This document shows, in pieces, positions 10,067 to 50,539 of a DNA stretch of 64,000 bases. Under the pieces are notes generated by a model that ran no database searches, was not told the origin of the DNA, and worked only from the letters and a program-made list of their open reading frames with translations. This DNA comes from an uncultured Geobacter sp. (lineage in GTDB: Bacteria > Desulfobacterota > Desulfuromonadia > Geobacterales > Geobacteraceae). The stretch is from contig CAIYDQ010000342.1 in NCBI GenBank assembly GCA_903925075.1, positions 1 through 64,000 of the forward strand. The letters run 5' to 3'. The position numbers and the translations under genes were made by a program. Position 1 is the first letter of the stretch, and each line of letters starts with the position of its first letter.

Positions 10067-10393
10067 ATGTTTGAACTGCTGGAGAAAGCGGTGCTGAGCG
10101 CTCTGGGCGCGGCGGCCCTGACGCAGAAGAAAGCCGAGGAACTGGTGCAGGAAATGAAGGCACGCTACAAACTGAGCGAAGACGAGGGGAGGGCGTTTCT
10201 GGAGCGGATCCAGGAGATCGGGCGCTTGGGGCGGGAGCGGACCGCCGAGCTGGCCGAGATCGAGGTGAAGCGCGCGCTGGACCGGTTCGGCATGGTGCCG
10301 CGCGAGGATTTCGAGAAGCTGGAGCGGCGCGTCCGGGCGCTGGAGGCGCAACAAGGTGAAGGGCGGGACGAGGAGCCGGGCACCGAATGTTGA
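10067..10393 (+). CDS. Phasin-like coiled-coil small protein
   Basis: A 108-residue acidic, all-helical protein (MFELLEKAVLSALGAAALTQKKAEELVQ...). The alternating charged and hydrophobic pattern and the C-terminal DFEKLERRVRALEAQ coiled coil match proteins annotated as phasin-like or polyhydroxyalkanoate granule-associated regulators. AGGAGGTG lies 6 bp before the ATG. Its last codons overlap the first of the following ABC1/UbiB kinase (stop codon inside the ATGTTGA junction), so the two are translationally coupled. This pairing suggests a structural partner or adaptor for the kinase and not necessarily a PHA function; no PHA synthase gene is present in the window. Confidence 0.6.
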   Translation: MFELLEKAVLSALGAAALTQKKAEELVQEMKARYKLSEDEGRAFLERIQEIGRLGRERTAELAEIEVKRALDRFGMVPREDFEKLERRVRALEAQQGEGRDEEPGTEC

Positions 10394-12075
10394 GGCTTTT
10401 GCAGGTCAACCGCAACGTCAGGAGCATCCGGCGCTACCGGCAGATCATCGGCGTCCTGGCCGAGTACGGCCTGGGGCAACTGCTGGAGTACCTGAACCTC
10501 TCCCAGATGGTGGCCGCCTCCCGCCGACTGCTGCGCCGCGGCAGCGGCAGGTCCACGGATCACCTCTCCCCCCCGCAACGGCTGCGGCTGGCCATGGAGG
10601 AGCTGGGCCCCACCTTCATCAAGCTGGGACAGCTCCTCTCCACCCGCGCCGACATCATCCCCCCCGCCTTCGTCGCCGAATTGGCGCTCTTGCAGGACAG
10701 CGTCCCCTCCATTCCGTTCGCCCTGATCCAGGCGGAGATCGAGCGCGAACTGGGCGCACCCACGGCCAGCCGCTTCGCGCTCTTGCAGCAGGAGGCGATG
10801 GCCGCGGCCTCCATCGCCCAGGTGCACCGCGCCCGGCTGATCGGCGGCGAGGACGTGGTGGTGAAGGTGCGCCGCCCGGGGGTGGCCGAGGCGGTGGAGA
10901 CCGACATCGACATCCTGATGGGGGTGGCGCTGCTCCTGGAGCGCCACATGCCCAGAAGCGACCTCTACGACCCGGTCGGCGTGGTGCGCGAGTTCGCCTA
11001 CACCATCCGGCGCGAGATGGACCTCTCCCGCGAAGGGCACGCCATGGAGCGGGTCCGCGACAACTTCCGCGGCGACCCGACCCTCTACTTTCCGCGGGTC
11101 TACTGGGAGGCGACCGCCCGCGGGGTGCTCACCACCGAGTACGTGGACGGCATCAAGGTGAGCGATCTCGCCGCCATCGAGGCGGCCGGGCTGGACCGGC
11201 GCGAGATCGCCCGGCGCGGGGCGGTGACCTTTCTGAAAATGGTGCTGGAGCACGGCTTCTTCCACGGCGACCCCCATCCCGGCAATGTGCTGATCATGCG
11301 GGACAACGTCATCTGCCTGCTCGACTTCGGCATGGTGGGGAGGCTCGACCCGGACCTGAAGCGCTACCTCACCGATCTGCTCTCGGCGGTGATCAAGAAG
11401 GACGTGAAGGGACTGGTCGAGACGGTGGTCGGCAACGTCGAAACCAGCGAGACCCTGAACCTGGGCGCGCTGAAGCGGGGGGTGGCAGAATTCATCGACC
11501 ACTTCTACGAGATACCGCTCAAGGAGATCGAGGTCGGGCGCATGCTGCTCGACTTCATCGACCTGATTTCCACCCACCGCATCAAGTTGCACCCGGACCT
11601 GACGCTCTTGGTCAAGGTGCTGGTGGTGGTGGAGGGGATGGGGAGGGAGCTGGACCCGCAGTTCGACATGGCGGGGCACCTGCGGCCGTTCCTGGAACGG
11701 GAACTGAGGGAGCAACGCTCCCCGGGGCGGATCGCCCGCGAGCTGGAGCAGGGGGTGGAGGATTACCTGTCGCTGGCCAAAAGCCTGCCGCGCGACCTGA
11801 AGGGGGTGCTGAACAAGATCAACCGCAACCGGTTCCGCATCGATCTCGAACACCGCGGGCTGGACCGCTTCAGCAGGGAGCTGGACCGCTGCGCCAACCG
11901 GCTGTCGCTCAGCATGATCATCGCCGCGCTCCTGATCGGCTCCTCCATCGCCATGCAGACCAACCGGGGACCGCTGCTTTTCGGCCTCCCCGCCCTCGCC
12001 TTCTTCGGCTACAGCTGCGCCGGCGTGGTCGGCCTCTGGTGGATGGTGGCCATCGTCCGCTCTGGCCGGCTCTGA
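10387..12075 (+). CDS. ubiB: ABC1/AarF/UbiB atypical kinase family protein
   Basis: A 562-residue membrane-associated atypical protein-kinase-like protein. Family marks are the K-x-G-Q motif TFIKLGQLLSTRADIIP (near residue 78), the Ala-rich loop AAASIAQVH that replaces the glycine-rich loop, the catalytic segment HGFFHGDPHPGNVLI and the metal site LLDFGMVG. Two C-terminal membrane helices (about residues 505-525 and 530-555) anchor it. UbiB proteins support synthesis or movement of isoprenoid quinones and other lipids; this lineage makes menaquinone, and menG is found 11.8 kb away. It is coupled to the upstream phasin-like gene. The exact substrate is unknown across the family. Confidence 0.85.
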   Translation: MLRLLQVNRNVRSIRRYRQIIGVLAEYGLGQLLEYLNLSQMVAASRRLLRRGSGRSTDHLSPPQRLRLAMEELGPTFIKLGQLLSTRADIIPPAFVAELALLQDSVPSIPFALIQAEIERELGAPTASRFALLQQEAMAAASIAQVHRARLIGGEDVVVKVRRPGVAEAVETDIDILMGVALLLERHMPRSDLYDPVGVVREFAYTIRREMDLSREGHAMERVRDNFRGDPTLYFPRVYWEATARGVLTTEYVDGIKVSDLAAIEAAGLDRREIARRGAVTFLKMVLEHGFFHGDPHPGNVLIMRDNVICLLDFGMVGRLDPDLKRYLTDLLSAVIKKDVKGLVETVVGNVETSETLNLGALKRGVAEFIDHFYEIPLKEIEVGRMLLDFIDLISTHRIKLHPDLTLLVKVLVVVEGMGRELDPQFDMAGHLRPFLERELREQRSPGRIARELEQGVEDYLSLAKSLPRDLKGVLNKINRNRFRIDLEHRGLDRFSRELDRCANRLSLSMIIAALLIGSSIAMQTNRGPLLFGLPALAFFGYSCAGVVGLWWMVAIVRSGRL

Positions 12076-12108
12076 CGGTTTCCACCTCCGGACCGGACTT
12101 CTTGCGGC

Positions 12109-12183
12109 GTTGCGCCGTAGCCCCGCAGCGGTGTTGCGCTTTTGCCCGCGAGAGTGTTGCACAAACGCCACACCCCTCGTTGC
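12109..12183. repeat. Four GTTGC motifs at 23-24 bp spacing upstream of lpxC
   Basis: GTTGC occurs at 12109, 12133, 12156 and 12179, so the steps are 24, 23 and 23 bp. The stretches between are only loosely similar (GTTGCGCTTTTGC, GTTGCACAAACGCC, GTTGCTTTTGCACC). The block lies 106-180 bp upstream of the sigma-54-like element at 12289. Confidence 0.55.
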
Positions 12184-12288
12184 TTTTGCACCACAGCCCC
12201 CCGCCGCCGGCGCCTCCACTTTCCGCCCCGCGCCGCTATCAGCGCGGCCTAGCGAGCTTTTTTCCAAATCCTACCCCCCCCTCTTTTT

Positions 12289-12302
12289 GGCCCATTCCTT
12301 GC
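12289..12302 (+). promoter_or_regulatory. Candidate sigma-54 (-24/-12) promoter of lpxC
   Basis: TTGG CCCATTCCTT GCTA has the GG and GC dinucleotides exactly 10 bp apart, with a T on each key side. Start of transcription would be near 12314, and lpxC begins at 12344. A TATAGT-like -10 element overlaps just downstream (12306-12311) but has no good -35. Confidence 0.45.
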
Positions 12303-12343
12303 TATATAGTCCGCATACTGATTAAATGGGCAGGGAGCACGCC

Positions 12344-13258
12344 ATGATATTCCAGCAAACGTTGGGCAACAAAGCGACCTTCAGCGGCATCGGCCTGCAC
12401 TCCGGAAAAACCATCACTCTGACGCTGCGCCCGGCCGAAGCCGGCACCGGCGTGGTCTTCCACCGGGTGGACCTCTCCCCTGCGGTCTCCATCGAGGCGC
12501 GCGCCGCCAACGTGGTCAGCACCAGGCTCTCCACCACCATCGGCAGCGGCCAGACCAGCGTCTCCACCATAGAACACCTGATGGCGGCCCTTTACAGCTG
12601 CGGCATCGACAACGCCCATATCGACATCAACGGGCCGGAGGTGCCGATCATGGACGGCTCCGCCGCCCCCTTCATGGCCGAGATCGCCAAGGCCGGCGTC
12701 AAGGGTTGCGGCAAGGCGCGCAAATACCTGGTGGTAAAGAAGCCGGTGACCGTGGTCGACGGCGACAAGAAGATCTCCATCATCCCCTCGCGCCATTACA
12801 AGATCTCCTTCGACATGCAATTCGCGCACCCGGCGGTGAAGAGCCAGTACAAATCCATGCTCTTCAGCCAGACCGGCTTCGCCGACGACTACGCCGCCGC
12901 CCGGACCTTCGGTTTTCTGTCCGAGGTGGAAACCCTCAAGGCGCACGGCCTGGCGCTGGGGGGCTCGCTGGAGAACGCCGTGGTGATCGGCGACCAGGGT
13001 GTGTTGAACGAGGAGGGGCTGAGGTTTCCCGACGAGTTCGTGCGCCACAAGATCCTCGACTCGGTGGGCGACCTGGCGCTGGCCGGTTACCGCCTGTTCG
13101 GCCACGTCAAGGCCAGCAAGTCGGGGCACGAGTTGAACCACAAGCTGGTCACCGAACTGCTCAAGCACCCGGACTGCTTCTCGCTGGTGGAACTCACCCC
13201 CCAGGCCGAGCACACGCCGTTCAACTTCGCCCTCCCGGAACTGGCCTGGGCGGACTGA
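12344..13258 (+). CDS. lpxC: UDP-3-O-acyl-N-acetylglucosamine deacetylase LpxC
   Basis: A 304-residue cytoplasmic zinc amidase that carries out the committed step of lipid A synthesis. The first zinc His is in STIEHLMAAL (His78); the second half has HKILDSVGDLALAG with the His-x3-Asp ligands and the catalytic His in KSGHELNH. Substrate-binding features such as SFDMQFAHP and the NAVVIGD loop are in place. ATG at 12344 was preferred to an ATG 18 bp earlier because AGGGAG lies 6 bp upstream and the family N-terminus (QQTLGNKATFSGIGLHSG) starts there. It is a single-gene unit here: a strong terminator follows and the upstream gap has a candidate sigma-54 promoter. Confidence 0.96.
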   Translation: MIFQQTLGNKATFSGIGLHSGKTITLTLRPAEAGTGVVFHRVDLSPAVSIEARAANVVSTRLSTTIGSGQTSVSTIEHLMAALYSCGIDNAHIDINGPEVPIMDGSAAPFMAEIAKAGVKGCGKARKYLVVKKPVTVVDGDKKISIIPSRHYKISFDMQFAHPAVKSQYKSMLFSQTGFADDYAAARTFGFLSEVETLKAHGLALGGSLENAVVIGDQGVLNEEGLRFPDEFVRHKILDSVGDLALAGYRLFGHVKASKSGHELNHKLVTELLKHPDCFSLVELTPQAEHTPFNFALPELAWAD

Positions 13259-13303
13259 CGACCAGCCCAAAATTTCGGTCGAGATTACCCTGCACTGCCG
13301 GTC

Positions 13304-13334
13304 AGCAGCCCCTCATGAAGGGGCTGCTTTTTTT
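13304..13334 (+). terminator. Intrinsic terminator of lpxC
   Basis: AGCAGCCCCT, loop CATGA, AGGGGCTGCT and then a run of T: a perfect 10-bp stem 46 bp after the lpxC stop codon. Confidence 0.9.
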
Positions 13335-13361
13335 TGGGCCTGCGCCCCCAAGTCGATCTGC

Positions 13362-13388
13362 TTGAATTCCCTTCCCTTTTCGTATAGA
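13362..13388 (+). promoter_or_regulatory. Possible promoter of the NtrY-like kinase gene
   Basis: TTGAAT (13362-13367), 15 bp, TATAGA (13383-13388). The -10 ends 8 bp before the ATG at 13397, so the mRNA would carry almost no leader. Confidence 0.45.
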
Positions 13389-13396
13389 GTGGGGCG

Positions 13397-15661
13397 ATGC
13401 CTACCACAAGGGAACAGGGCGCAAGCGCGCCGCAGGAGACGGGTCCTCAGCTTCCCGCCGCCGAGATCAAAAAGAGAAAACGCGAGGCGATCATCGTCTG
13501 CGTCTCGCTTTTGACCATCCTGCTCCTCACCTCGGTGGAAATCCACCTGTCGCGCCTGAGCTCCGAGGTGCCGATGGGGAGCAACATCACCATCTTCGGC
13601 ATCATCAACGTCATCATCCTGCTGATCATCCTCCTCGTTTACCTGGTGTTCAGGAACATCGCCAAGCTGCTTTTGGAGCGGCGCCGCAACGCCCCCGGCT
13701 CGCGCCTGCGCACCAAGCTGGTGCTCGCCTTCGTCACCTTGTCGCTGGTGCCGACCATGCTGCTCTTCTTCGTCTCCGCCGGCTTCATCACCAACAGCAT
13801 CCAGAACTGGTTCAACAAACAGGTGGAAAACTCCCTGAACGAGTCGATGGAGGTGGCGCAGACCTACTACAAGAGTTCCGCCGCCAGCGCGCTCTACTAC
13901 GGCCAGCAGATCAGCGACGCCATCAAGGCGCAAAAGCTCCTGAACGAGGCCAATCTGCCGCAGCTGAAGGCGCTGGTGCGCCAAAAGCAGCAGGAGTACA
14001 ACCTGGGGGTGGTGGAGGTGTTCTCCTCGCAGCGCGAGGAACTGATCCGCGCCGCCAACCCGAAGCTGCCGCTGGGCGAGTTCACCAACCCCTCCTCCGA
14101 CGACCTCAAGGTGGGGCTGGCCGGGCAGCAGTTGACGCGGGTGAACGCCATCGGCAAGGCGGACCTGATCCGCGGCATCGTGCCGGTCAGGTCCAACTGG
14201 AACGACAGCGACGTGGTCGGGGTGATCGTGGTCAACTACTACGTCCCCTATTCGCTGGTCTCCAAGATGCGCGAGATCTCCGCCTCCTACCACGAATTCC
14301 GCCAGTTGAAGATCATGAAGAACCCGATCGCCACCGGCTACATCCTGACCCTGTTCCTGATCACCATGGTGATCGTCTTTCTGGCCGTCTGGTTCGGCGT
14401 CTACCTGGCCAGAAGCCTCACCATCCCGATCCAGGAACTGGCCGAGGCCACCCGGCAGGTGGCGGAGGGGAACTTGGACGTGCACCTGGGGCAGACCGGC
14501 CACGACGAGATCGGCATGCTGATCGCCTCCTTCAACAGGATGACTCAGGACCTGAGGGAGAACCAGCTGGCGCTGCAGCAGACCAACCAGGAGCTGCAAA
14601 AGAGCAACCTGGAACTGGAGCAGCGGCGCCGCTACATGGAGGCGGTGCTGGCCAACGTCACCGCCGGCATCATCTCGGTGGACAAGGACGGCCTCTTGAC
14701 CACGGTGAACAAATCCGCCGAGAAGCTGCTGCTGATCAACATGGACCGGGTGGCGGGCCACAACTTCCGCGAGGTGCTGCGCCCCGCCCATCTGGACATC
14801 GTCAAGGGGCTTTTGCGCGACATGGTGCTCTCCAAGCAGGACGCCATCACCAAGCAGGTGGTGATCCCGATGCGCGACTCGGAATTGACGCTGCTCACCA
14901 ACCTCACCGTCCTTAAGGACGAGAACGACGTGTTCATGGGGATGGTGGTGGTGCTGGACGACCTGACCTCCCTGATCAAGGCCCAGCGCATGGCCGCCTG
15001 GCGCGAGGTGGCCAGGAGGATCGCCCACGAGATCAAGAACCCGCTCACGCCGATCCAGCTCTCCGCCGAGCGCCTCAGAAAGCGCTACCTCGCCCGCTTC
15101 GAGGGAGAGGAGAAGGTGTTCGACGAGTGCACCGCGATGATCATCAAATCGGTGGACGAGTTGAAGGGGCTGGTGGACGAATTCTCCAATTTCGCCCGCA
15201 TGCCCGCCTCGGTGCCGTCGCTCAACAACCTGAACCTGCTGCTCAAGGAGGCGCTCACCCTCTACGTGGAGGCGCACCGCCGGATACGGTTCACCCTGCA
15301 CACCGACGACAGCATGCCGGAGATCATGCTGGACCGGGACCAGATCAAACGGGTGCTGATCAACCTTTTGGACAACGCGGTGGCCGCCATCGAGGAGGAG
15401 GGGGAGATCGAGCTCTCCAGCTCCTACGACGGCGAGCTGAAGATGGCCACCTTCGCCGTCTCCGACACCGGCCACGGCATCGCCGCCGAAGACCGCCCCA
15501 GGCTCTTCGAGCCCTACTTCTCCCGGAAGAAAAGCGGCACCGGGCTGGGATTGGCCATCGTCAACACCATCATCACCGACCACCACGGCTTCATCAGGGC
15601 CAAAGAGAATTCCCCCAAGGGGAGCAGGTTCATCATCGAGCTCCCCACGGACGCCTCGTGA
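13397..15661 (+). CDS. NtrY-like sensor histidine kinase
   Basis: A 754-residue membrane sensor kinase. Three hydrophobic segments at the N-terminus (about residues 36-55, 67-92 and 115-135) and one near 315-340 frame an extracytoplasmic sensor region. HAMP follows (ARSLTIPIQELAEATRQVAEG), then a PAS domain (VLANVTAGIISVDKDGLL), the H-box RRIAHEIKNPLTPIQLSAER with His near residue 544, and the ATPase domain (NLLDNAVAAIEEEG, DTGHGI, SGTGLGLAI). The N-terminal layout and the NPLTPIQLSAERLRKRY sequence match the NtrY family, which phosphorylates NtrC-type sigma-54 activators. No NtrX-like regulator is adjacent; the next gene is AsmA-like. The true partner must be elsewhere. Confidence 0.88.
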   Translation: MPTTREQGASAPQETGPQLPAAEIKKRKREAIIVCVSLLTILLLTSVEIHLSRLSSEVPMGSNITIFGIINVIILLIILLVYLVFRNIAKLLLERRRNAPGSRLRTKLVLAFVTLSLVPTMLLFFVSAGFITNSIQNWFNKQVENSLNESMEVAQTYYKSSAASALYYGQQISDAIKAQKLLNEANLPQLKALVRQKQQEYNLGVVEVFSSQREELIRAANPKLPLGEFTNPSSDDLKVGLAGQQLTRVNAIGKADLIRGIVPVRSNWNDSDVVGVIVVNYYVPYSLVSKMREISASYHEFRQLKIMKNPIATGYILTLFLITMVIVFLAVWFGVYLARSLTIPIQELAEATRQVAEGNLDVHLGQTGHDEIGMLIASFNRMTQDLRENQLALQQTNQELQKSNLELEQRRRYMEAVLANVTAGIISVDKDGLLTTVNKSAEKLLLINMDRVAGHNFREVLRPAHLDIVKGLLRDMVLSKQDAITKQVVIPMRDSELTLLTNLTVLKDENDVFMGMVVVLDDLTSLIKAQRMAAWREVARRIAHEIKNPLTPIQLSAERLRKRYLARFEGEEKVFDECTAMIIKSVDELKGLVDEFSNFARMPASVPSLNNLNLLLKEALTLYVEAHRRIRFTLHTDDSMPEIMLDRDQIKRVLINLLDNAVAAIEEEGEIELSSSYDGELKMATFAVSDTGHGIAAEDRPRLFEPYFSRKKSGTGLGLAIVNTIITDHHGFIRAKENSPKGSRFIIELPTDAS

Positions 15662-48991: not shown

Positions 48992-50539
48992 TTAGAAATG
49001 CTTCTTTCTTTCCGAGGACGACCCGATCCGAAGCATCTCGCGGTACTTGGTGACGGTGCGCCTGGCGATGACGATGTTGTGCACGGTCAGCAATTCCGCC
49101 AGGCGCTGATCGCTGTAGGGGCGCTTCGGGTCCTCGGCGTCGACCAGCTCCTTGATCTTGCTCTTCACGCTCTCCGAGGCGATGAAATCCCCCTCGCCGG
49201 TGGAGATGCCCGAGTTGAAGAAATACTTGAGTTCGAAGAGCCCCTGCGGGGTCTGCATGTATTTGCTGGTGGTGACCCGGCTGATGGTCGATTCGTGCAT
49301 GCCGATGTCCTCGGCGATGTCCCGCAAGACCAGCGGCCGCAGGTGGTCGATCCCCCGGTCCAGGAAATCGCGCTGGAACTTGACCAGGCTCTTGGCCACC
49401 TTGAAAATGGTGCGCTGGCGCTGCTGGATGCTCTTGATCAGCCAGATGGCCGAGCGCATCTTCTCGCCGATGTACTCTTCCGCCTTCTTGTCCACCGCCC
49501 GGCTGGACTTGGCTTCCGGCGCGTAGAGCGGGTTGATCCTCAGGTTGGGCATCCCCTCCTCGTTCAGGGCCACTACGTACTCGTCGCCCACCTTGTGCAC
49601 GAAGATGTCCGCCGAGATGTACTGCACGTCTTCCTGCCCGAAAACCCGCCCGGGTTTCGGGTCCAGCTCGGCGATGATCTTGGAGGCCTCCAGGATGTCG
49701 TTCACCTCGCAGCCGAGCACCTTGGCCGCCTGCTTGTAGCGGCGGCTTTCCAGGTCCTTCAGGTGGTCCCGCAGCAGCGCCTCGACCAGGCTCCCCCCCA
49801 TCCCCAGGCTCGCCACCTGGAGCAGCAGGCACTCGCGCAGGTCGCGGGCGCCCACGCCGATCGGGTCGAATTCCTGGATGCGCTTGAGCACCACCTGCGC
49901 CAAGGGGGCCAGCACGCTCTCGGAAAACCCGTCGGCGGCCTCCGAGATCTGCTCGCGTTGCGCGTCCGGCACCAGCCCGGACCAGGCGATCATCTCCTGG
50001 CGAAACGGACTCACCTGCACGCACGCCTGAGCCACGTCGTCCAAGGTGGCCCTCAGGTAGCCGTCCTCGTCGATGTTGCCGATGATCTCCGCCCCCACCG
50101 CCATCTCCCGCTCCGTCAACCGGGTCAGGCTCAACTGCCAGAGCAGGTGGTCGGAGAGGGTCGATTTCTTGGTCAAAAGGTTTTCGAAGGAGGGGCGGTC
50201 CTCGTCGTCGTAGTACTGTTCCCCCGCGCTGTAGTTGTAGCCGTCTATGTAGGAATCCCAGTCGGTTTCCCGGGTCTCCTCGCCGGCCCGCACCTCTTGA
50301 AAATCGTTGCTGGCGCTCTCGGGTTCGACTTCCTTCTCGTGCGTTTCTATCTGTTCCGGCTCCCGGATCTCTTCCTGCTCCGGCGCCTCGTCAAGTATCG
50401 GATTTTCCTCCAGTTCCTGCCGCACCACGTCCTGCAATTCCAGCCTGGAAAGCTGGAGAAGCTTGATGGCCTGCTGCAACTGGGGGGTCATCACCAGTTG
50501 CTGGCTCATTTTCATCTGCTGGCGCATCTCTATAGCCAT
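48992..50539 (-). CDS. rpoN: RNA polymerase sigma-54 factor
   Basis: A 515-residue sigma-54. Region I is Gln/Leu-rich (QQMKMSQQLVMTPQLQQAIK, LQLSRLELQDVVRQELEENP), region II is acidic (EQEEIREPEQIETHEKEVEPE), and region III contains the core-binding and HTH parts. The RpoN box near the C-terminus is ARRTVTKYREML. It recognises -24/-12 promoters and needs NtrC-type activators. In Geobacter sulfurreducens rpoN is reported as essential. Here it lies between lptB and hpf; a 239-bp gap with heptamer repeats separates it from lptB, so it may have its own promoter. Confidence 0.97.
   Translation of the reverse strand: MAIEMRQQMKMSQQLVMTPQLQQAIKLLQLSRLELQDVVRQELEENPILDEAPEQEEIREPEQIETHEKEVEPESASNDFQEVRAGEETRETDWDSYIDGYNYSAGEQYYDDEDRPSFENLLTKKSTLSDHLLWQLSLTRLTEREMAVGAEIIGNIDEDGYLRATLDDVAQACVQVSPFRQEMIAWSGLVPDAQREQISEAADGFSESVLAPLAQVVLKRIQEFDPIGVGARDLRECLLLQVASLGMGGSLVEALLRDHLKDLESRRYKQAAKVLGCEVNDILEASKIIAELDPKPGRVFGQEDVQYISADIFVHKVGDEYVVALNEEGMPNLRINPLYAPEAKSSRAVDKKAEEYIGEKMRSAIWLIKSIQQRQRTIFKVAKSLVKFQRDFLDRGIDHLRPLVLRDIAEDIGMHESTISRVTTSKYMQTPQGLFELKYFFNSGISTGEGDFIASESVKSKIKELVDAEDPKRPYSDQRLAELLTVHNIVIARRTVTKYREMLRIGSSSERKKHF

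Follow-up and report, generated by a model that had tools for sequence, protein, structure and literature searches.

The lpxC locus and its predicted promoter

In the window, by which we mean the whole 64-kb stretch of DNA analysed here, lpxC lies between a UbiB-family gene and a gene for an NtrY-like membrane histidine kinase (Table 1). The closest named LpxC is that of Geomonas oryzae (79%), and the window belongs to a Geomonas-like member of the Geobacterales; 18 further genomes of its genus were searched. Only one LpxC gene was found in the window's genome. The lpxC start was placed at 12344 and not at the ATG at 12326, on the evidence of a Shine-Dalgarno sequence at 12332-12337 and an MIFQQ start common to relatives. 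After lpxC, one terminator-like site was found against a mean of 1.3 in shuffles, a count that says little by itself; hairpin-like stretches ending in T are visible by eye at the same place within the genus, and the hairpin suggests a one-gene transcript. The first-pass annotation had placed rpoN after LPS-transport genes, and it does follow lptC-lptA-lptB.

Table 1. Features of the lpxC locus and of the genes discussed with it; positions are those of the window unless another contig is named
Feature	Position	Strand	Remarks
UbiB-family gene	10387..12075	+	Upstream of lpxC; conserved neighbour
Degenerate GTTGC unit GTTGCGCCGTAGCCCCGC	12109..12126	+	In phase; about 8/12 operator positions; no counterpart in relatives
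Degenerate GTTGC unit TGTTGCGCTTTTGCCCGC	12132..12149	+	In phase; 8/12 operator positions; no counterpart in relatives
Distal conserved dyad, predicted activator site TGTTGCACAAACGCCACA	12155..12172	+	TGTTGC-N6-GCMACA; centred 137 bp before the -12 GC
Proximal conserved dyad, predicted activator site CGTTGCTTTTGCACCACA	12178..12195	+	23 bp past the distal dyad; centred 114 bp before the -12 GC
Predicted -24/-12 (sigma-54) promoter element TTGGCCCATTCCTTGCT	12287..12303	+	Kept in 39/39 type-1 lpxC upstream regions
Predicted transcript start	12314..12315	+	12-13 bases past the -12 C, from the promoter position
lpxC	12344..13258	+	UDP-3-O-acyl-GlcNAc deacetylase, 304 aa; TIGR00325 326 bits, PF03331
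Terminator-like hairpin and T run	13304..13336	+	After lpxC; 10-pair stem
NtrY-like membrane histidine kinase	13397..15661	+	Probable partner of the activator; NtrY_N, HAMP, PAS, HisKA, HATPase
rpoN (sigma-54)	48992..50539	-	Only one found in the genome
NtrX-like response regulator	G000:C10:17796-19169 (L104/L187)		Likely activator; on a contig other than that of lpxC

The first-pass annotation had proposed a GG-N10-GC pair at 12289-12302 as the -24/-12 promoter of lpxC. Its coordinates are right: the window sequence reads GG at 12289-12290 and GC at 12301-12302, separated by ten bases and set in a TTGGCAC-like and a TTGC-like context. The element agrees with the consensus at 10 of 12 scored positions, a score equalled by 41 of 3000 dinucleotide shuffles of 12076-12343. 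For Geobacter sulfurreducens the sigma-54 consensus has been given as TTGGCACGGTTTTTGCT (PMC2725144). The predicted start would leave a leader of about 29 bases. TGGC-N7-TTGCW occurs five times in the window against 1.19 expected, so the element by itself is not rare. Upstream of it, GTTGC words begin at 12109, 12133, 12156, and 12179 (spacing 24, 23, and 23). No chain of GTTGC phased in this way arose in 5000 shuffles; in 37 of 2000, however, some 5-mer or other formed a fourfold chain at intervals of 20-33 bp, which makes the array, judged on the window alone, only an event of about 2%. As a tandem repeat the array was rejected, Tandem Repeats Finder returning 0 rows. The case for sigma-54 is carried by conservation.

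Conservation within the family

The order has two LpxC classes. Type 1, to which the window's protein belongs, matches PF03331 at about 1e-104 to 1e-112, and full-length proteins of the second class match it at about 1e-83 to 1e-93. In a quick tree with open forks, 11 of 12 second-class proteins formed one clade, whose stem measures 2.9 changes per column. The twelfth, L150 (the second LpxC of G021), sits on a long branch outside that clade. The two sets (L150-L161 versus L002-L019 and L131-L149) are far diverged, and some genomes have both: two LpxC genes were found in G021, G029-G033, G058, and G059, the window's genus has type 1 only, and the remainder of the order mostly has the second class only. 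The arrangement suggests that, in genomes with both classes, the copy with the sigma-54 promoter is an inducible isozyme and the other a constitutive one.

We compared 39 type-1 lpxC upstream regions, which represent 11 genera within the family: 19 are from the window's genus and 20 from ten other genera. Left out of the set were G043, whose lpxC is truncated at a contig end, L021 and L022 as duplicates of L007 and L131, and the type-1 copies of G058 and G059. The motif TGG[C/T]-N7-TTGC was found in every region (38 TGGC, 1 TGGT), with TGG standing 49-74 bases ahead of the start codon. The GG/GC pair, whose loss from orthologous promoters the first-pass annotation would have counted against its own reading, was thus retained in 39/39. 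Information content is cited from the 20 other-genus and the 19 genus rows. In the 20 other-genus rows, the T, G, G and the T, T, G, C never vary (2.0 bits). Outside the element no position exceeds 0.8 bits, with the exception of the T preceding TGG (1.4 bits). The strict form TGGC-N7-TTGC was absent (0/12) from up to 400 bp upstream of second-class genes of the same family (L150-L161). On this evidence the sigma-54 promoter reading for lpxC is very likely right, and we infer from sequence, with the support of these alignments, that lpxC is under sigma-54 control from the predicted start.

The same alignments bear on a TATAGT box at 12305-12310, to which the first-pass annotation had given the rank of a weaker sigma-70 alternative. 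Were the housekeeping sigma factor to transcribe lpxC from this box, the GG/GC pair would be there by chance, which its presence in all 39 regions argues against. The box is nearly constant inside the genus, and AATAAT stands at its place in 5 of the 20 other-genus rows, both of which speak for such a promoter; outside the genus it is not kept, each of its positions carrying 0.1-0.7 bits in the 20 other-genus rows and 10 of these rows agreeing with TATAAT at no more than two positions. A sigma-70 scan of 12000-13450 gave 0 sites. An AT-rich stretch is expected where a sigma-54 promoter melts, so that one at TATAGT is expected under the sigma-54 reading as well. The low rank of the box stands, and we judge transcription of lpxC from it highly unlikely. 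Both kinds of promoter might also be at work, sigma-54 giving the regulated output of lpxC and a weak vegetative promoter, at this place or inside ubiB, a basal one, so that rpoN and the activator would be nonessential for lpxC. Because lpxC is normally essential and is the sole LpxC gene found in the window's genome, a safety supply would make sense; ubiB lies upstream in the same direction as lpxC, and the retention of TATAGT within the genus also favours such an arrangement. Against it, no sigma-70-type match was found in 12000-13450, a scan that stopped at 12000 on the ubiB side, and we consider a second, basal promoter rather unlikely.

Upstream of the sigma-54 element, the conserved unit is the palindrome TGTKGC-N6-GCMACA, of which the GTTGC words are the left halves. 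The four phased GTTGC motifs of the first-pass annotation are correct in position and spacing, but only the last two sit in conserved palindromes. In relatives the predicted activator sites take the form of two palindromes, mostly 23 bp apart, and not of four GTTGC words. The best dyad pair is 23-24 bp apart in 31 of the 39 regions and 19-22 bp apart in 8, and it stands some 95-150 bp before the -12 GC; in L140 the second dyad is not convincing. The predicted sites in the window, by their centres, fall within the roughly 80-200 bp upstream at which enhancer dyads of sigma-54 promoters lie. The operator consensus was picked after the alignments had been seen.

We built a sequence-only profile of the dyad pair (R1) from 22 sequences and ran it on 47 of the 48 family genomes (G016 left out) under stricter filters, which miss weak matches. 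In the window's genome, the sole place at E <= 1 on both strands was lpxC (E 7.6e-11). The best place was lpxC in all 38 searched genomes having a type-1 lpxC upstream region, 21 of which had contributed training sequences to R1; the match at lpxC was weak in G047 and G022 (E 0.013 and 0.019). Several genomes have weaker matches away from lpxC, the best at G009:C1:705325 (E 5.9e-4). A search of the whole genome with the single-dyad pattern, one mismatch allowed, was uninformative (73 matches against 60 for a reversed control). We are highly confident that the dyad pair, as a conserved predicted operator, is real. A strong operator match was also seen at G045:C6:3546-3589; no LpxC match was found in G045, where lpxC has perhaps been lost at a contig break.

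The candidate activator and its probable kinase

The candidate activator is an NtrX-like response regulator with a receiver domain, a Sigma54_activat AAA+ domain carrying GAFTGA, and a Fis-type HTH, the domain set of the NtrC family. Its best NCBIfam model is NtrX (NF051870), at 515.5 bits against a cut-off of 600, short of equivalog assignment. In the window's genus no activator adjoins lpxC at the loci examined. The kinase gene lies downstream of type-1 lpxC at 18/18 other loci of the genus and at 14 of 20 loci of other genera; it was not found downstream at the remaining 6, some of which are cut short. A regulator ortholog follows the kinase immediately in L022, L024, L025, L026, L029, and L038, in a comparison that took in 30 of the genome's 60 Sigma54_activat matches. 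L223 and L224 likewise show lpxC-kinase-regulator, as does L222, where 3.2 kb separate lpxC from the kinase; UbiB-kinase-regulator without an intervening lpxC occurs in L226, L227, and L230 (genomes with the second LpxC class only), and kinase-regulator in L228. Across the order, the regulator had matches at E <= 1e-125 in 124 of 141 genomes, a threshold that lets in some paralogs. Genomes that have the other LpxC alone often carry an ortholog of it, which must therefore serve other purposes there. In the window's genome (L186:4180-8173) the regulator lies downstream of genes for an aminotransferase, an HD-domain protein, and a small unknown protein.

The other LpxC is the only one in six genomes of the family (G025-G028, G035, and G036; G023, 70% complete, and G043 were excluded). 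In five of them the best R1 match, weak in score (E 0.014-0.07; tied in G025), is a lone dyad that lies upstream of the regulator gene at a distance of 1.2-1.4 kb; as G025-G028 are one genus, these are few independent cases. G035 has the regulator, lacks type-1 lpxC, and has its best R1 match elsewhere. The dyad upstream of the regulator is a predicted link of operator and regulator independent of lpxC. In the window's genome, no operator at >=10/12 positions was found near the activator gene (plus strand of L186 and L187). At L217:6482-6499, L218:8150-8167, and L225:3241-3258, a single dyad lies just before the Shine-Dalgarno sequence of the gene preceding the regulator, an aminotransferase-like gene in L217; this position suggests autorepression rather than activation.

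The promoter and operator could be real and yet be served by an enhancer-binding protein other than the NtrX-like regulator. In the window's genus the regulator gene is not linked to lpxC, and there are 60 Sigma54_activat matches in G000, some of them partial and in all a large activator set for one genome, so that another activator is possible; in addition, the genomes of L040, L049, and L091 have a best regulator match of only 44-46% identity, yet the promoter is present in all three and the operator in L040 and L091. Set against this are the succession of lpxC, kinase, and regulator in other genera, the best operator-like site upstream of the regulator in five of the six family genomes with only the other LpxC, and the precedent in Desulfovibrio vulgaris (see below). 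We hold a different activator to be unlikely and regard the NtrX-like regulator as the likely one.

The whole circuit, made up of a sigma-54 promoter, the NtrX-like activator, the NtrY-like kinase, and tandem dyads, probably drives lpxC. Sigma-54 RNA polymerase would wait in a closed state at the lpxC promoter (12287-12303). The NtrY-like kinase encoded just after lpxC presumably phosphorylates the NtrX-like regulator, which would bind the tandem palindromes (12155-12195) and, by ATP hydrolysis in its GAFTGA-bearing AAA+ domain, open the promoter. The effect is presumed to be activation; the signal may be envelope or lipid A status. Given the terminator-like hairpin after lpxC, the circuit probably governs how much of the committed lipid A enzyme is made, and nothing else.

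Known systems and distribution beyond the order

Control of LpxC is known mainly as proteolysis in E. coli, and a sigma-54 promoter would be a quite different logic. FtsH/LapB proteolysis in E. coli sets the amount of the same committed enzyme; as described in PMC12444477, it acts post-translationally through a C-terminal degron, whereas the window's LpxC ends in ...PELAWAD, without an AVLA end of the E. coli type. The first-pass annotation had called sigma-54 control of lpxC unusual, a word to be qualified, since for D. vulgaris the account in PMC3333781 gives lpxC (DVU2917) as the only target of the sigma-54 response regulator DVU2934. The pair is listed under 'Lipid A biosynthesis' in a sigma-54 regulon (PMC4641369). 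In view of this precedent, regulation of lpxC through sigma-54 is of a kind already known. Among PMC3333781, PMC4641369, PMC3431258, PMC7240162, and PMC12444477, it is the two papers on D. vulgaris regulators that tie lpxC directly to a sigma-54 response regulator.

By the description in PMC3333781, DVU2934 is, like the regulator of the window's genome, a GAFTGA response regulator. Orthologs in Geobacter lovleyi and Acidobacterium capsulatum are named in the same paper, which also reports lpxC directly upstream of the operon of the DVU2934 ortholog in Syntrophobacter fumaroxidans. Before lpxC, its authors found their validated motif in just two further genomes, both of Desulfovibrio, and proposed divergence elsewhere; the window's dyad is conserved family-wide and its wider form (below) beyond. 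DVU2934 reportedly shares its operon with an HD-GYP response regulator; the regulator of the window's genome follows a gene for an HD-domain protein.

The NtrYX system of alphaproteobacteria resembles the present one in being an NtrY/NtrX-like pair, and it affects the lpxC transcript and the envelope (PMC7240162, PMC12444477). It differs, as there described, in lowering the lpxC transcript and having broad regulons, against one sigma-54 promoter and one strong operator place here. In Rhodobacter sphaeroides, loss of NtrYX raised the lpxC transcript 8.8-fold, apparently indirectly, with no NtrX site upstream of lpxC in that account (PMC7240162); the sign of regulation here could accordingly differ. 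A 2025 review (PMC12444477) names alphaproteobacterial NtrYX and ChvGI as transcriptional regulators of lpxC outside E. coli, and its main text mentions neither Desulfovibrio nor Geobacter. The proposal of sigma-54 as controller of the bacterial exterior (PMC3162934) connects sigma-54 with LPS and with an rpoN-lpt neighbourhood like that seen here; lpxC is absent from its main text and from the main text of the paper on the G. sulfurreducens RpoN regulon. According to PMC4641369, deletion of rpoN was unsuccessful in Myxococcus xanthus and G. sulfurreducens. As far as the literature searched shows, what is new here is the promoter and operator in Geobacterales, the linkage of an NtrY-like kinase, and the distribution across phyla.

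For the spread beyond the order, 78 of 80 named lpxC loci had enough upstream DNA (L065 and L083 were dropped because theirs was short). A promoter was scored when GG and GC were present and at least 9 of 12 scored positions matched within 250 bp; group labels come from record titles and are uncertain for several 'Deltaproteobacteria' metagenome-assembled genomes (MAGs). The promoter was present in 16/19 'Desulfo' loci (1.0 expected from shuffles), 5/6 Myxococcota (0.4), 7/8 Acidobacteriota (0.5), 3/4 Nitrospirota (0.2), and two of five other MAG loci; it was found in 0/36 loci of alpha-, beta-, gamma-, and epsilon- and Bdellovibrio-group bacteria (1.75 expected). L021 and L022 are included in this count and excluded from that of the operator. 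A wider operator, TGTKG-N8-CMACA (at least 9/10 positions), selected post hoc from the sequences, was found in 11/17 'Desulfo' loci (0.5 expected), 7/8 Acidobacteriota (0.3), and 3/4 Nitrospirota (0.2), in L079 just 58 bp before the promoter. It was found in 0/6 Myxococcota and in none of the five other MAG loci, and it occurs in 4/36 control loci (about 0.9 expected), two of these without a GG/GC candidate.

The best regulator match was nearly full length at 55-59% identity in 11 of the 19 genomes searched (7 Acidobacteriota, 1 Nitrospirota, and 3 deltaproteobacterial); in six of the seven Acidobacteriota a second match reached 50-54%, so that the best match there is a putative ortholog. Next to the 44-46% of the L040, L049, and L091 genomes given above, an alpha control reached 48% and the gamma control L042 44%, and the gamma control L037 had a match at E 1.6e-102. 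In two Myxococcaceae, the match (55%) covers the first 379 residues only, and the C-terminal helix differs. A single LpxC match was found in 15 of 16 genomes checked, including four Myxococcaceae; the second match in G154 is a fragment of 61 positions.

The predicted sigma-54/two-component arrangement at lpxC recurs in related bacteria and, probably, in several further phyla. More tentatively, at somewhat short of even chances, a sigma-54/NtrYX-like circuit acting on a TGTGG-N8-CCACA-type operator may be an ancient control, common to several phyla, of the committed step of lipid A synthesis, present in the Desulfobacterota including Geobacterales, in Acidobacteriota, and in some Nitrospirota, with the promoter and a different operator and activator in Myxococcota. 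Where a lone LpxC gene depends on this promoter, sigma-54 and the activator would then be needed for viability, which could account for the failed deletion of rpoN in M. xanthus. A sigma-54 promoter at lpxC that is conserved across four groups of phylum rank would bring a transcriptional logic to the setting of lipid A supply; if true, it would explain part of the old association between sigma-54 and LPS-bearing bacteria and make a concrete prediction on why rpoN cannot be deleted in M. xanthus.

In the Myxococcaceae loci L031-L034, which include M. xanthus, a sigma-54-type element lies about 103-114 bp before the lpxC start region; these loci have no TGTKG-N8-CMACA dyad, and their LpxC gene is single. 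One locus labelled Chloroflexi (L028) carries a UbiB-lpxC pair of the Desulfuromonadales type and is probably mis-binned.
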